DNA of 20,859 bases, from positions 1 to 20,859 of the IMG/VR virus record IMGVR_UViG_3300006751_000185; one strand, given 5' to 3'. The notes beneath the pieces are model-generated. The model did no database searches. It saw only the letters and a list, made by a program, of their open reading frames with translations, and was not told the DNA's origin. The first letter of the stretch is position 1, and the number at the start of each line of letters is the position of its first letter. A program made the position numbers and the translations under genes. Origin of the DNA: a virus. Below, piece by piece: positions 1,712 to 6,326 of this stretch.

Positions 1712-2084
1712 TCACGGAGGTTTGCTCTGTAGGTATTGTAGCAGAGGTCGTCATCGTTGTCAAAAGTTTTTGTCCTGGGACCGAGACGAGGAAAGATATA
1801 ACAGCAAGAGCACCAAAAATACTCCACATCTTCTTTTCAATGACTCTAAGGCGTTCATCAACCTTTCTGATATCTCTTTCACAACCTTTCTTAATCTCCT
1901 CAGATTGACGATTGACTTCTCTATGCACACTCTCTATCTTCTCAAAAAGTACTGCATCTATTCTATCCTGCTTGTCTAATTTCTCATTATGGACAGCAAG
2001 CAACTGTCCCATCTTGATTGAATTTTCTTGTAAAGAATCCACGACCCTTTCCAATCGCTCTAAGATAGCAGTATTTACATCCAT
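1698..2084 (-). CDS. Coiled-coil protein with C-terminal membrane segment (XhlA-like)
   Basis: A 128-aa protein. Residues 1-85 form a long charged amphipathic helix with heptad-like spacing. One hydrophobic segment follows (about residues 87-102, WSIFGALAVISFLVSV), then a short Ser/Thr-rich tail. The layout of N-terminal coiled coil plus one C-terminal membrane span resembles haemolysin/holin-associated XhlA proteins, but similarity is architectural only. It could assist lysis or be a membrane tether. It lies between late-type genes and gp61, overlapping its upstream neighbour by 10 bases and gp61 by 14. Its 3' end carries the promoter for gp61-nrdA. Confidence 0.75.
   Translation of the reverse strand: MDVNTAILERLERVVDSLQENSIKMGQLLAVHNEKLDKQDRIDAVLFEKIESVHREVNRQSEEIKKGCERDIRKVDERLRVIEKKMWSIFGALAVISFLVSVPGQKLLTTMTTSATIPTEQTSVNGSN
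1735..1763 (-). promoter_or_regulatory. Sigma70-type early promoter for gp61-nrdA
   Basis: On the minus strand, TTGACA (1758-1763) is followed by a 17-base spacer and TACAAT (1735-1740): 6/6 and 5/6 matches to consensus at ideal spacing. Transcription would start near 1728, about 17 bases before the gp61 ATG. The site lies in the 3' end of the preceding coding region, so chance remains possible. Confidence 0.7.
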
Positions 2085-2278
2085 CGCTTACGAGAGCCGT
2101 GACCCCCAGTAGCGTATCTCTTTTGAACTCCTTTCTTTTTCTTACCTAACCCAACCTCTTTACCTGCTACTGGTCCTTTCGCATCAGAACTACCACTAAA
2201 ACCACCACTCTGACCGACTGCATTGCCGACCATCTCTTCTCTAACAAACTTAATTATCTTATCCAGACGGCGATCCAT
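2075..2278 (-). CDS. Small Gly/Lys-rich conserved phage protein
   Basis: A 67-aa protein beginning MDRRLDKIIKFVREEM. The ATG at 2278 is preferred because it overlaps the upstream stop in a TAATG junction; a TTG at 2305 would add nine residues. A helical N-terminus is followed by a Gly/Ser-rich flexible stretch and a strongly basic tail (GKKKKGVQKRYATGGHGSRKRWM region, cited in part). From memory this resembles small conserved hypothetical proteins of marine T4-like phages. Function is unknown. The basic tail could bind nucleic acid or an acidic partner, which is inference. Confidence 0.7.
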   Translation of the reverse strand: MDRRLDKIIKFVREEMVGNAVGQSGGFSGSSDAKGPVAGKEVGLGKKKKGVQKRYATGGHGSRKRWM

Positions 2279-2649
2279 TAGAGTTTCCGTAGTTGAGTCA
2301 GACAAAATTCATCATCTAATACTCTATTTAGTTCTGATGGAGGATATTCAGAGACTCTTCCAAGGTATGTTAGAAAACTCTTAGTACAAGACCAGAGATC
2401 AGTATCTAACTTAAAGAAAAGTAATGGTACTCCAGCATCACCAAAGACATTAAAAAGAACAATGAAGTGATTGAGGATAAGATGAGTCCTCAGCTCTCCA
2501 GTGTTCCGATATCTCTTGAGTAATCGTTTGATATACTTTATTCGCTTTAAATCATCATAAAAATCATCCTCAGTCACAGCCTGAGGATTATCATAATTTT
2601 TTATAGCAAATAAAAGATAATTATTGTCATTCAATTCATCGAATCTCAT
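2278..2649 (-). CDS. Conserved cyanophage protein of unknown function
   Basis: A 123-aa mostly helical protein starting MRFDELNDNNYLLFAIKNYD, a pattern I recognise from conserved hypotheticals of T4-like cyanophages (DUF7207-type, from memory). Features include a basic helix around residues 35-47 (KRIKYIKRLLKRYRNTGE) and a hydrophobic core (LILNHFIVLFNVFGDAGVPLLFF). It lies 7 bases after the probable virion protein gene and is coupled by TAATG to the next small gene, so it may be made late. No catalytic motif is visible. Confidence 0.8.
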   Translation of the reverse strand: MRFDELNDNNYLLFAIKNYDNPQAVTEDDFYDDLKRIKYIKRLLKRYRNTGELRTHLILNHFIVLFNVFGDAGVPLLFFKLDTDLWSCTKSFLTYLGRVSEYPPSELNRVLDDEFCLTQLRKL

Positions 2650-3489: not shown

Positions 3490-3803
3490 TAGTCAGAACC
3501 CCTATTAGATGTACCAGGTGGATAGCGACCTTGTGATGGATCCTTTTTAAATTCTGCTGCTCTTTCTTTAGCAATCTTTTCTTTATGCTTCTTATATTTT
3601 ACAGCATCTCTTGCTTTCTCTGCAGGAGTTTTCTTAGGAGCTCTGTCAGCAAAAACAGCACCCTGAGTTTTCTCCATATTATCCTTCCACTTATCTAAAT
3701 TAAACTTCTTAGGATTAGTAGCAGACTCTTTAACTCCACCTGTAATAGGATCAGGCAACAAAAGATCAGTGACTTCATATGCCACATCACCATTAGCTTT
3801 CAT
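3489..3803 (-). CDS. Small basic protein, unknown
   Basis: A 104-aa protein with an N-terminal acidic/hydrophobic part (residues 1-20, MKANGDVAYEVTDLLLPDPI) and a lysine-rich helical C-terminal half (ARDAVKYKKHKEKIAKERAA near residues 65-84). The tail is Gly/Pro-rich. It sits 29 bases downstream of the 179-aa coiled-coil gene and overlaps the next basic gene. Expression as part of the late island is likely. No family recognised. Confidence 0.65.
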   Translation of the reverse strand: MKANGDVAYEVTDLLLPDPITGGVKESATNPKKFNLDKWKDNMEKTQGAVFADRAPKKTPAEKARDAVKYKKHKEKIAKERAAEFKKDPSQGRYPPGTSNRGSD

Positions 3804-3832
3804 AAGATATAATTTATCGTTCTCTTCAATCG

Positions 3833-4372
3833 TTAAAGTTTTTTTTTAGCTTCCACACTCTCGTAAGCGTATCTGTCATCAGACTTACTAGTGTTACCCT
3901 TGTCCTTAACTACCTTATCAGCAATCTTATCCTTATCCTTAGGACTCAATTTTCTTCCTTGCCTTTTCATTGCAGAAAGAACCTCACCTTTTTTCACAGT
4001 TTCATAACTTGCCTTTTCATCAAGATACTTATTATTATACATGGCATAGATCTTGCCAACAATAGTCTCTTTCAAATCTGGATTAATAGTAATAGTATTC
4101 TTTACACTCTTCTCTACAATCTCTCTGTCTTTTTCATCAGATGTAGTTGCCTTCTCAGACTTATATTGAATCTTCTCTTCCAATTCTTTTTCTAATTTCT
4201 CAATCACCTTCTGCTTTTCTGCCCTAGACTCAGCAATAGCAGTGGCAATTTCTCGCCTACGAAGTTCTTTCGCTGTCAATTCCTCAACAACCAATTCATC
4301 CTTACCTATAAAAGCATTTTTCATACTCTTAAGTAGGATCTCTTCCGAACTTTCTTCAATAAAGTTTGCCAT
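3833..4372 (-). CDS. Charged coiled-coil protein, late island
   Basis: A 179-aa protein, very rich in Lys and Glu. Residues about 30-85 form a long predicted coiled coil (AESRAEKQKVIEKLEKELEE). A second part (about 135-170) carries the sequence QGRKLSPKDKDKIADKVV, which I associate with conserved marine phage proteins of unknown role. The ORF starts at an ATG 30 bases after a TATAAATA box located inside the 3' end of the preceding gene. It could be a head-core or scaffold-like component, which is inference from composition and late promoter only. Confidence 0.65.
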   Translation of the reverse strand: MANFIEESSEEILLKSMKNAFIGKDELVVEELTAKELRRREIATAIAESRAEKQKVIEKLEKELEEKIQYKSEKATTSDEKDREIVEKSVKNTITINPDLKETIVGKIYAMYNNKYLDEKASYETVKKGEVLSAMKRQGRKLSPKDKDKIADKVVKDKGNTSKSDDRYAYESVEAKKKL

Positions 4373-4387
4373 CGATTGAAAGTTGAG

Positions 4388-5671
4388 TTATTTTCTATTG
4401 TTATTTATAAATGACTTAACCTTTTCCATCGGAGTTAATGCTTGTACATATTCTCTGTAAGAATCTGTACCCACTTCTCTCTTCGATGCTACAACACCAG
4501 AAGGTGCTTTAGACTCCTTGATATCAGTGATCCAGGACTTAAACATTATACCATCATTGGTTGCTGCAATAACATAATTCGTACCCTTTCTCAGAATACG
4601 ACCAGCTAATCCAGTATTAAGACTTTCTATTAATGTTCCAACATTAAAGATAACTCCAGTAATAAAATGCTCTCTCAACTCCTTAAAGTGTAACTTAGGA
4701 GCAACCCTCCAAACTTCAAGACCTTCTTTAGTGGCAGTTGCTTTCTTTCCTCCCCCAATTTTAATAAGTCTCTTCTGAACTGTATTAAAAAGTTCTCTAG
4801 CAACTACACCTCTTGCTGCTTTAGGAAGATCCTTTTTAAATTTTTTAAATGCATCAGGATCATCATCTGCTATTGTTAAGTTTCTGAGAGCCGTAGCATT
4901 GACCTTCTCTGTCCCATCACCCTTGGCAATATCTTCGTCTGTTGCGTCTTCCCCTGCTCTTTTTCCTGCTGAAATGACATTAATCGCATCAAAATTATAA
5001 AGTTGTCCGTTGTATTTGTTCGCGAGCTCCTCAAATTCTTTGACTCGCTTACCGCCAGCCACGACATTAACGGTTTGATACCCTTGTACATCTGCATGAG
5101 TTAAAGCATCAATAATTGTACGAATGGATGGATCATATATGATATTACTTGCATGATCTGGGAAAACTTTCTTCATAAAAAGAACCTTCTCCTCTGCACC
5201 AAGAGGATTTGTCTCATCACCTTCTGAGTGTGATGGATAAACTACATACTGACCTGCTCCACCAGTGTCATCTGCATCATCAGCAATGTCCTTAAGTTTC
5301 TTTAAAAGTTTTTCATGACCAATTGTCGGTGGGTTAAACCTACCAAAACCGATAGTAAGCGTTCCTCTTGTTTTTTCCACACCTCCTTGTTCCTCTGCAG
5401 GGGGCAGTTCTTCAGATGCCTCACCTGGTACAGGCGGCGGCGGTACTTCCGAAACCGTTTGTCTAGCTGCAGATCCTGGCTTAAGAGGATCGGTGTCTTG
5501 TGCTGGTTTTCTTCCACTGTTAAATACTAGTTCTCCTTCGATAGTTCTAGCAACTATTCTGCCATTGGAATCAGTCCAGGCACCATGCGAATCATTACTT
5601 AATCCAAGCTTCTTAGCCTGCTTTGCTGCATTGGATGCTGCTTCAGTTAAAAATTTAGAAAAAGACTTCAT
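4388..5671 (-). CDS. NMNAT/cytidylyltransferase-like nucleotidyltransferase with capsid-targeting-like leader
   Basis: A 427-aa protein. Residues 1-11 (MKSFSKFLTEA) closely resemble the capsid-targeting sequence of T4 internal proteins (MKTYQEFIAEA), including an LTE|A site like those cut by prohead protease gp21. Residues 18-52 form a small domain (KKLGLSNDSHGAWTDSNG) of a type seen in marine phage proteins. A Pro/Glu-rich linker (75-100) follows. Residues 104-290 are an HxGH-type nucleotidyltransferase: GFGRFNPPTIGH (108-119), VVAGGKRVKEF, and VNATALRN (257-264) in place of ISSTxxR. The C-terminal 120 residues are unassigned. The enzyme may make NAD or activate another small molecule, perhaps inside the infected cell after injection. 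Confidence 0.85.
   Translation of the reverse strand: MKSFSKFLTEAASNAAKQAKKLGLSNDSHGAWTDSNGRIVARTIEGELVFNSGRKPAQDTDPLKPGSAARQTVSEVPPPPVPGEASEELPPAEEQGGVEKTRGTLTIGFGRFNPPTIGHEKLLKKLKDIADDADDTGGAGQYVVYPSHSEGDETNPLGAEEKVLFMKKVFPDHASNIIYDPSIRTIIDALTHADVQGYQTVNVVAGGKRVKEFEELANKYNGQLYNFDAINVISAGKRAGEDATDEDIAKGDGTEKVNATALRNLTIADDDPDAFKKFKKDLPKAARGVVARELFNTVQKRLIKIGGGKKATATKEGLEVWRVAPKLHFKELREHFITGVIFNVGTLIESLNTGLAGRILRKGTNYVIAATNDGIMFKSWITDIKESKAPSGVVASKREVGTDSYREYVQALTPMEKVKSFINNNRK
4402..4409 (-). promoter_or_regulatory. T4-type late promoter box
   Basis: TATAAATA on the minus strand, inside the last codons of the nucleotidyltransferase gene and 30 bases before the ATG at 4372. Exact consensus match; it also encodes Phe-Ile-Asn, so chance is possible. 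Confidence 0.6.
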
Positions 5672-5672
5672 C

Positions 5673-6326
5673 TTATTTGCAATAAATTCGTCTGGATGTG
5701 CCCTTAATCGTATTTATATTAAATGCTAATGACATCCTAACCTCATCCGATTCATTACTTACAACTCTATGCTTAAGGAAAGATGGGAAGATAATAATAT
5801 CACCTTCTTCAACATCCTCTGGCCACCACCATTGCCTAGAAAACTGATAGTAATCAGTTATATCCTCTTCATCTCGACAAGCTGCTGAACAAGTATAAAT
5901 GCAATTAAATAACTGGTGCATTGGATTAGCAAACTGTATTGCCTGATGTTCATCAGGATTAAACTGTAGATAATGAATTCCAGAATAAAATGCAGGTAAG
6001 TGATCATGCTCTTCCTGATTCTCACCCTTAGCATAATAATTTAACCAAGACTCATGCATCTCTGCCCTTCCATTCGGACCAAGCCCAACATCTCTAGCAA
6101 AATCTTTCATTATATCATCATACATATGACTGTAAATATTTGCTTGAGAATTCTCAAAGTCAGTTGTTAATTGGCAATCCCAATTAGAAGGTGTCCCATG
6201 CACAGGAATAGATTTATTCCTTAGATATTTCTCATTTGCTATTGCTTTAAGTTCTGTTGGATCCTTATGATAACGAAATAAAGGCATTCCAAAAACTATA
6301 TCCAAAGACTCAGGATGATCCATCAT
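5673..6326 (-). CDS. 2OG-Fe(II) oxygenase family protein
   Basis: A 217-aa protein if started at the ATG at 6326. A TTG at 6332, seven bases after an AGG, would add two residues and overlap the upstream stop. The metal site reads EEHDHLPAFYSGIHYLQF (His107 and His109 region), and the distal part IIFPSFLKHRVVSNESDEVRMSLAFN supplies His186 and the 2-oxoglutarate-binding Arg197. This matches the 2OG-FeII_Oxy_5 type common in cyanophages. Substrate is unknown; protein, nucleobase and small molecule are all possible. Its stop is 1 base before the start of the CTS-led gene, and its 3' end carries that gene's late promoter. Confidence 0.85.
   Translation of the reverse strand: MMDHPESLDIVFGMPLFRYHKDPTELKAIANEKYLRNKSIPVHGTPSNWDCQLTTDFENSQANIYSHMYDDIMKDFARDVGLGPNGRAEMHESWLNYYAKGENQEEHDHLPAFYSGIHYLQFNPDEHQAIQFANPMHQLFNCIYTCSAACRDEEDITDYYQFSRQWWWPEDVEEGDIIIFPSFLKHRVVSNESDEVRMSLAFNINTIKGTSRRIYCK
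5711..5718 (-). promoter_or_regulatory. T4-type late promoter box
   Basis: TATAAATA on the minus strand, within the 3' end of the oxygenase gene and 39 bases before the ATG at 5671. Late expression fits the capsid-targeting-like leader of that product, which would have to be made during head assembly. Confidence 0.7.

Follow-up and report, generated by a model that had tools for sequence, protein, structure and literature searches.

A probable T4-type capsid-targeting leader on a cyanophage nucleotidyltransferase, recurring on unrelated proteins of T4-like phages, as a candidate address for injected head cargo

The proteins that T4-like phages inject into their hosts are mostly unknown, because they are present in few copies per particle and carry no recognised mark outside the phages of E. 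coli. In T4 there is such a mark, the capsid-targeting sequence (CTS; Mullaney and Black 1996, as reviewed in PMC9026906), and in the internal protein IPIII residues 4 and 7 have been assigned to capsid targeting and residues 8 and 10 to processing (PMC9026906). The T4 record gives MKTYQEFIAEA as the start of IPII and IPIII and MKTFKEF...ITEA as that of IPI. Residues 59-66 of T4 gp23 read FGSFLTEA, which we take to be the gp23 processing site. The injected enzyme Alt, which the original prediction named as a carrier of the IPII/IPIII leader, does not have it: Alt is cut after ITE-6 and LTE-619 (PMC5694885), and we rejected it as a model since its N-terminus is processed elsewhere, at ITE-6.

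The protein studied here belongs to a family annotated in GenBank as cytidyltransferase, T4-GC190. This family belongs to the gene core of 16 cyanophage genomes, its S-SM1 member was detected in purified virions (PMC3037559), and homologues were detected by mass spectrometry in the virions of S-SCSM1 (PMC9602691), S-SZBM1 (PMC9146016) and S-CREM2 (PMC10665884); in S-SZBM1 the emPAI of the enzyme was 0.26 compared to 27.6 for the capsid protein (PMC9146016). The authors of the S-SCSM1 (PMC9602691) and S-CREM2 (PMC10665884) studies speculated on entry into the host and allowed carry-over from the lysate as a possibility. Virion association is therefore already published and injection already proposed in print, so that the 'new kind of injected effector' originally predicted had been partly anticipated. 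The accessible text of the earlier reports on cyanophage T4-GC190 virion proteins does not mention a CTS leader, and our search of papers readable without subscription found no earlier report of a CTS in cyanophages or of the CTS as a general cargo code, nor any measurement of cleavage or injection for a cyanophage.

We analyzed a window of 20,859 nucleotides (IMG/VR record IMGVR_UViG_3300006751_000185), whose gp43 is 76% identical to the gp43 of the Synechococcus phages S-T4 and S-SM2, indicating that its source is a T4-like cyanophage or close relative. The gene of interest has an ATG start and encodes a protein beginning MKSFSKFLTEA (Table 1). A second contig (L015) holds an identical copy of the enzyme, which argues against sequencing error. 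The promoter box of the gene falls inside the 2OG-oxygenase ORF that lies upstream, at its 3' end, and two further TATAAATA boxes lie 29 and 33 nt ahead of the ORFs at 4372 and 3154; with three such boxes, the locus looks like a small late-gene island amid replication genes. The downstream neighbour is, by its position alone, the counterpart of the virion proteins that adjoin the enzyme in S-SZBM1 (_139) and S-CREM2 (gp155). A small ORF at 2075-2305 (-) has GGFSGSSDAKGPVAGKE, which resembles the sequence following the predicted cut in the N-arm of cyanophage gp23 (GFSGLATATGPVAGFDP), and this ORF may be a capsid N-arm mimic; stretches similar to GGFSGSSDAKGPVAGKE also occur in S-SM1 SSM1_197 and in the S-CREM2 virion protein gp160.

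Table 1. The leader-tagged enzyme gene and adjacent features, in window positions (a slash marks a cut site)
Feature	Position	Strand	Size or basis
Leader-tagged nucleotidyltransferase, T4-GC190 / phrog_395 'cytidyltransferase' family	4388..5671	-	427 aa
CTS-like leader MKSFSKFLTE, residues 1-10; predicted prohead-protease cut after Glu10 (LTE/A)	5642..5671	-	homologue conservation, T4 comparison, cyanophage gp23
T4-type late promoter box TATAAATA, 39 nt 5' of the ATG	5711..5718	-	conserved in homologues
Module 'KKLGL..DGHGxW.D..GxxVAxTxxGxL' of ~39 aa, residues 12-50	5522..5638	-	phrog_3561 N-terminus match; pLDDT 78-88
Pro/Glu-rich variable linker, residues 51-100	5372..5521	-	zero invariant columns; pLDDT ~40 over most
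T/HxGH nucleotidyltransferase domain, residues 101-308	4748..5371	-	pLDDT, Foldseek, VIA, PF01467 in relatives
TIGH active-site motif, residues 116-119	5315..5326	-	T116 and H119 invariant
Second nucleotide-binding motif VNATALR, residues 257-263; (M)SASKxR in most relatives	4883..4903	-	R263 invariant
SH3/KOW-like C-terminal module, residues 321-388	4508..4711	-	tentative fold assignment; separate ORF in some cyanophages
Downstream neighbour ORF, 179 aa	3833..4372	-	own TATAAATA box at 4402-4409

Relatives of the window protein were found by tblastn in 499 phage records, 380 of which cover at least 80% of the protein (~33-41% identity), and in most full-length matches the alignment begins at residue 1, so that the leader is included. 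From 80 viral-contig loci we retained 40 non-redundant full-length members. All of these have M1, K2, F4, F7 and E10; L or I stands at position 8 in 39/40 and A or S at position 11 in 35/40, with positions 3, 5, 6 and 9 varying freely. The conserved positions are those assigned by published T4 mutants to targeting (4 and 7) and to processing (8 and 10), and the window leader has all four of these residues, including E10. The proposed likeness of MKSFSKFLTEA to MKTYQEFIAEA was thus borne out, both by the IPII and IPIII sequences and by the positions invariant in all 40 homologues. A regular expression for the leader, applied to ORF starts in 1.09 Mb of related contigs, matched nothing but the 80 nucleotidyltransferases and a further three conserved families. 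The leader in the enzyme family is more than a chance resemblance.

The variants that occur naturally are consistent with a detachable element. Short leaderless enzymes are found in P-HM2, S-CAM1, S-H9-2 and the jumbo phages GAP32 and Cassandra, P-RSM6 and S-SZBM1 have the leader without the GDGHG module, the leader of S-CAM9 is degenerate, and the C-terminal module is a separate ORF in S-CAM1, S-H9-2 and P-HM2. The existence of forms with and without the leader suggests that the tag is an added part, as expected for a sorting signal, and the leaderless versions, together with the degenerate S-CAM9 leader, indicate that the enzyme sometimes does without it.

The late promoter is conserved as well. 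ATAAATA lies within 100 nt upstream of 35/40 enzyme homologues compared to 1.5 expected, in agreement with the box that had been predicted ahead of the window gene, which is probably transcribed late from TATAAATA; the same motif precedes 15/45 of the other tagged ORFs among the matches listed in the scan described below, compared to 1.3 expected. Of ten records of relatives, seven encode the prohead protease gp21 (62-65% identity) and the other three are the shortest; the window itself is a 20.9-kb fragment. Furthermore, the major capsid proteins of S-SZBM1, S-CREM2 and S-SM1 have ILTE/A, LLTE/A and ILTE/T, respectively, at a place comparable to the T4 gp23 site.

We scanned 2.9 million viral contigs with the pattern ATG AAA NNN TTY NNN NNN TTY NTN NNN GAR GC. 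The matches listed number 82 in 80 loci, and all 82 start an ORF that is at least 60 aa long or runs off the contig, with none inside a longer open frame. Among the matches listed, 36 are members of the window enzyme family and the remaining 46 are different proteins, most of them strongly basic; a few of the latter are truncated by the contig end and too short for classification. T or S occupies position 3 in 34/46 of these other proteins and Q or E position 6 in 34/46, both positions having been left free by the pattern. Of the contigs among the matches listed, 44/45 and 36/36 also hold, at another site, a homologue of S-SM1, S-SZBM1 or T4 (80/81 T4-like). A decoy pattern, with Phe at 5 in place of 4, gave 80 listed matches, 72 of which also have F/Y at position 4 and are real leaders; the eight pure decoys listed (four ORFs of at least 60 aa, two internal, 0/8 on T4-like contigs) act like chance matches. 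The suggested search for the leader on other proteins gave, across viral contigs, at least 46 tagged proteins outside the window enzyme family, and few within single genomes: S-SM1 has only one plausible leader ORF and S-SZBM1 only three.

The tagged proteins are diverse, and the proportions of cargo types, taken from samples of the matches listed, are rough. Domains that score above the Pfam cut-offs, among the matches listed, include a GNAT acetyltransferase, a glucosaminidase, DUF5661 and an S-AdoMet lyase, the last on a contig (L019) whose enzyme is 72% identical to that of the window. Tagged S-AdoMet lyases (PF23780; L019 tested) lie at L019:15830-16351 (+) and L023:20242-20769 (+) and belong to the family of the S-CREM2 virion protein gp6; in these close relatives of the window phage, they are possibly injected anti-restriction enzymes. 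At L117, two tagged ORFs adjoin each other (3736-4149 and 4149-4529, +), one weakly RNA 2'-phosphotransferase-like, and thus possibly ADP-ribosyltransferase-like, and the other a GNAT acetyltransferase. A tagged protein at L170:339-1253 (+) starts MKPFKEFLNEA... and continues with GFGANAADGGPVAGFDKY, again resembling the gp23 N-arm. Small tagged proteins, one of them phrog_1742, are encoded at S-SZBM1 122311-122628 and 122628-123125 (-) and at L068:8883-9197; those of S-SZBM1 adjoin head and packaging genes and are absent from the S-SZBM1 virion proteome list. A Pol-beta-like nucleotidyltransferase look-alike with an MK(T/N)Y..F(F/L).ES leader is found at L084:1129-1854 (+) and four other loci, and S-CREM2 gp156, a virion protein that adjoins the enzyme, is a Pol-beta-like nucleotidyltransferase.

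The published S-CREM2 proteome allowed the leader to be compared with virion content. The motif F/Y-x-x-F/Y-[LIMVF]-x-E within the first 25 residues is present in 5/52 virion proteins and 1/167 other proteins (Fisher p=0.003), and the enrichment is weaker when proteins shorter than 150 aa are set aside (5/45 vs 0/51, p=0.02). The five motif-bearing virion proteins include all four that are enzyme-like, namely the cytidylyltransferase, the SAM hydrolase, an APH-like kinase and 'Cas9', which the authors classed as regulatory or DNA-metabolic; it was the authors who grouped these four as cargo, and our attention to them was post hoc. 'Cas9' and the kinase (gp12 and gp14, both virion proteins) also have the ~39-aa GDGHG-type module after the leader. 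The annotated CRISPR-Cas9, gp12 (L009:7704-10313, -), combines leader and GDGHG module and matches phrog_3561; it has no Pfam match, which makes the Cas9 label doubtful.

Together, these data make it probable that T4-like phages of marine and fresh waters share MK[TSKN][FY]xxF[IL]xE/[AS] as a general cargo address, one that defines a readable set of injected proteins. On this reading, the set would probably comprise nucleotidyltransferases, S-AdoMet lyases, kinases, acetyltransferases, the 'Cas9'-annotated protein and many small basic proteins, and the nucleotidyltransferase would, with similar confidence, be its most widespread member.

For the window enzyme, we assign a probability of roughly 0.7 to the reading that a T4-type CTS, cleaved by gp21, carries an NMNAT/PPAT-fold nucleotidyltransferase into the head in a few copies, to be injected. 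Packaging by means of such a CTS is well supported: the leader is conserved, occurs on virion enzymes unrelated to this one and is confined to T4-like contigs, and to this are added the late promoters, the gp21 of relatives and the published virion mass spectrometry of homologues. The enzyme would be synthesized late, from TATAAATA, and residues 1-10 would direct a small number of copies to the prohead core, where a gp21-type protease may cut after Glu10 (LTE/A). The mature protein, consisting of the GDGHG module, the linker, the T/HxGH domain and the SH3/KOW-like C-terminus, would then stay in the head and presumably exit with the DNA, as a natural consequence of packaging, and in the host it would most likely act early as an adenylyltransferase of the NMNAT/PPAT type.

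The catalytic domain was examined with an AlphaFold2 run on the family alignment, in which pLDDT is mostly above 85 over residues 101-308 except in short loops. The model matched phosphopantetheine adenylyltransferase (PPAT) in Foldseek (E 7.8e-6), and VIA ranked PPAT (Z 13.5, rmsd 3.2, 155 residues) and an archaeal NMN adenylyltransferase (NMNAT; Z 12.9) at the top. The domain is thus predicted to have the Rossmann-like nucleotidyltransferase fold that includes these two enzymes. T116, H119 and R263 are invariant across the alignment, and the (H/T)xGH and SxTxxR-like motifs are present as TIGH and NATALR. The 'full HxGH nucleotidyltransferase' of the original prediction was therefore right as to fold and wrong as to motif. 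NATALR stands in the window copy where most relatives have SASKxR, and K208 where most have D/E. The window protein scores 16.1 bits against PF01467, below the gathering cut-off of 21, whereas 37/40 members match this family at E<=0.01, the best relative at 1.5e-8. The C-terminal module weakly, and tentatively, resembles the KOW/SH3 barrels of ribosomal eS4 and Spt5.

The substrate is the part of our reading for which an alternative survives best. The comparison with NMNAT suggested earlier confirmed the nucleotidyltransferase fold and left PPAT and NMNAT tied within 1 Z, and we therefore rejected the assignment of NMN from the fold alone. The signature of glycerol-phosphate/choline-type cytidylyltransferases is RTEGISTT; this class was likewise rejected, since the alignment has SASKxR/NATALR as the second motif. 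We infer that NMN is the likeliest substrate, in that NMNAT-type NCBIfam models match most members (TIGR00482 37/40, nadR 32/40). All of these matches are weak, the window copy has none to the NCBIfam NMNAT models, and PPAT structures rank level with or above NMNAT, which leaves an appreciable, though smaller, chance that the protein is packaged and injected as a PPAT-like or new adenylyl- or cytidylyltransferase with a substrate other than NMN, possibly linked to DUF6267. A DUF6267 protein with a KWDG motif (S-SM1 SSM1_189, S-SZBM1 _141, L346-L353), ligase-like by eye, adjoins the nucleotidyltransferase in S-SM1 and S-SZBM1, a DUF6267-like ORF lies upstream of the enzyme in P-HM2 and several other cyanophages, and phrog_455 contains a fusion. 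A leader-tagged DUF6267 protein is also found at L103:4695-5942. However, a KxDG motif near the gene is absent at all 40 related loci and in the window, and for this reason we dropped the DUF6267 partnership as main evidence on the substrate.

A structural role in the head is a less probable alternative: the leader would load the protein for core assembly, DNA condensation or head stability, its nucleotidyltransferase activity being lost or irrelevant, and there would be no injected effector. The modular build, with conserved non-enzymatic modules at both ends, the altered second motif of the window copy and the position of the gene beside those of other virion proteins are in keeping with such a role. 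We nevertheless regard it as unlikely, since T116, H119 and R263 are invariant, the published emPAI in S-SZBM1 is low compared to that of the capsid protein, and the leader is shared with SAM lyase, GNAT and glucosaminidase domains, which are cargo-like rather than scaffold-like. Carry-over of an abundant cytosolic auxiliary metabolic enzyme whose N-terminus has another role, although raised by the authors of two of the proteomes and compatible with the leaderless homologues, is very improbable given the detection in four different phages, the S-CREM2 and S-SZBM1 virion lists, which contain no cytosolic replication enzymes, the occurrence of the leader on unrelated proteins and T4 internal proteins, and the conserved late promoter.

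If the leader also functions as a CTS in cyanophages, their injected cargo becomes recognisable from sequence, and the presence of the tag on many unrelated proteins could be used to predict what T4-like phages inject into bacteria. The long-noted core 'cytidyltransferase' of cyanophages would then become a head cargo that acts at time zero, and the SAM hydrolase, kinase and 'Cas9' in S-CREM2 virions would be accounted for.

Among known systems, T4 IPI, IPII and IPIII share with the window protein a 10-residue N-terminal leader with an aromatic residue at position 4, Phe7, Ile/Leu8, Glu10 and a predicted cut before Ala, as well as a late-type promoter and membership in a set of tagged proteins. 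They are small and basic, whereas the window protein is a multidomain enzyme of near-neutral charge (+2), for which cleavage and injection are predictions. The NMNAT-like virion proteins of S-SM1, S-SCSM1, S-SZBM1 and S-CREM2 (T4-GC190) are of the same family, from which the window copy differs in short insertions and its changed second motif. T4 Alt, an ADP-ribosyltransferase, is similarly an enzyme carried in the virion, from which action at the outset of infection is expected, but it lacks such a leader and its chemistry is different. Finally, in phage P1 an N-terminal signal likewise puts an anti-restriction protein, DarB, into the head (PMC9024508), although its sequence and phage lineage differ from those of the window protein.
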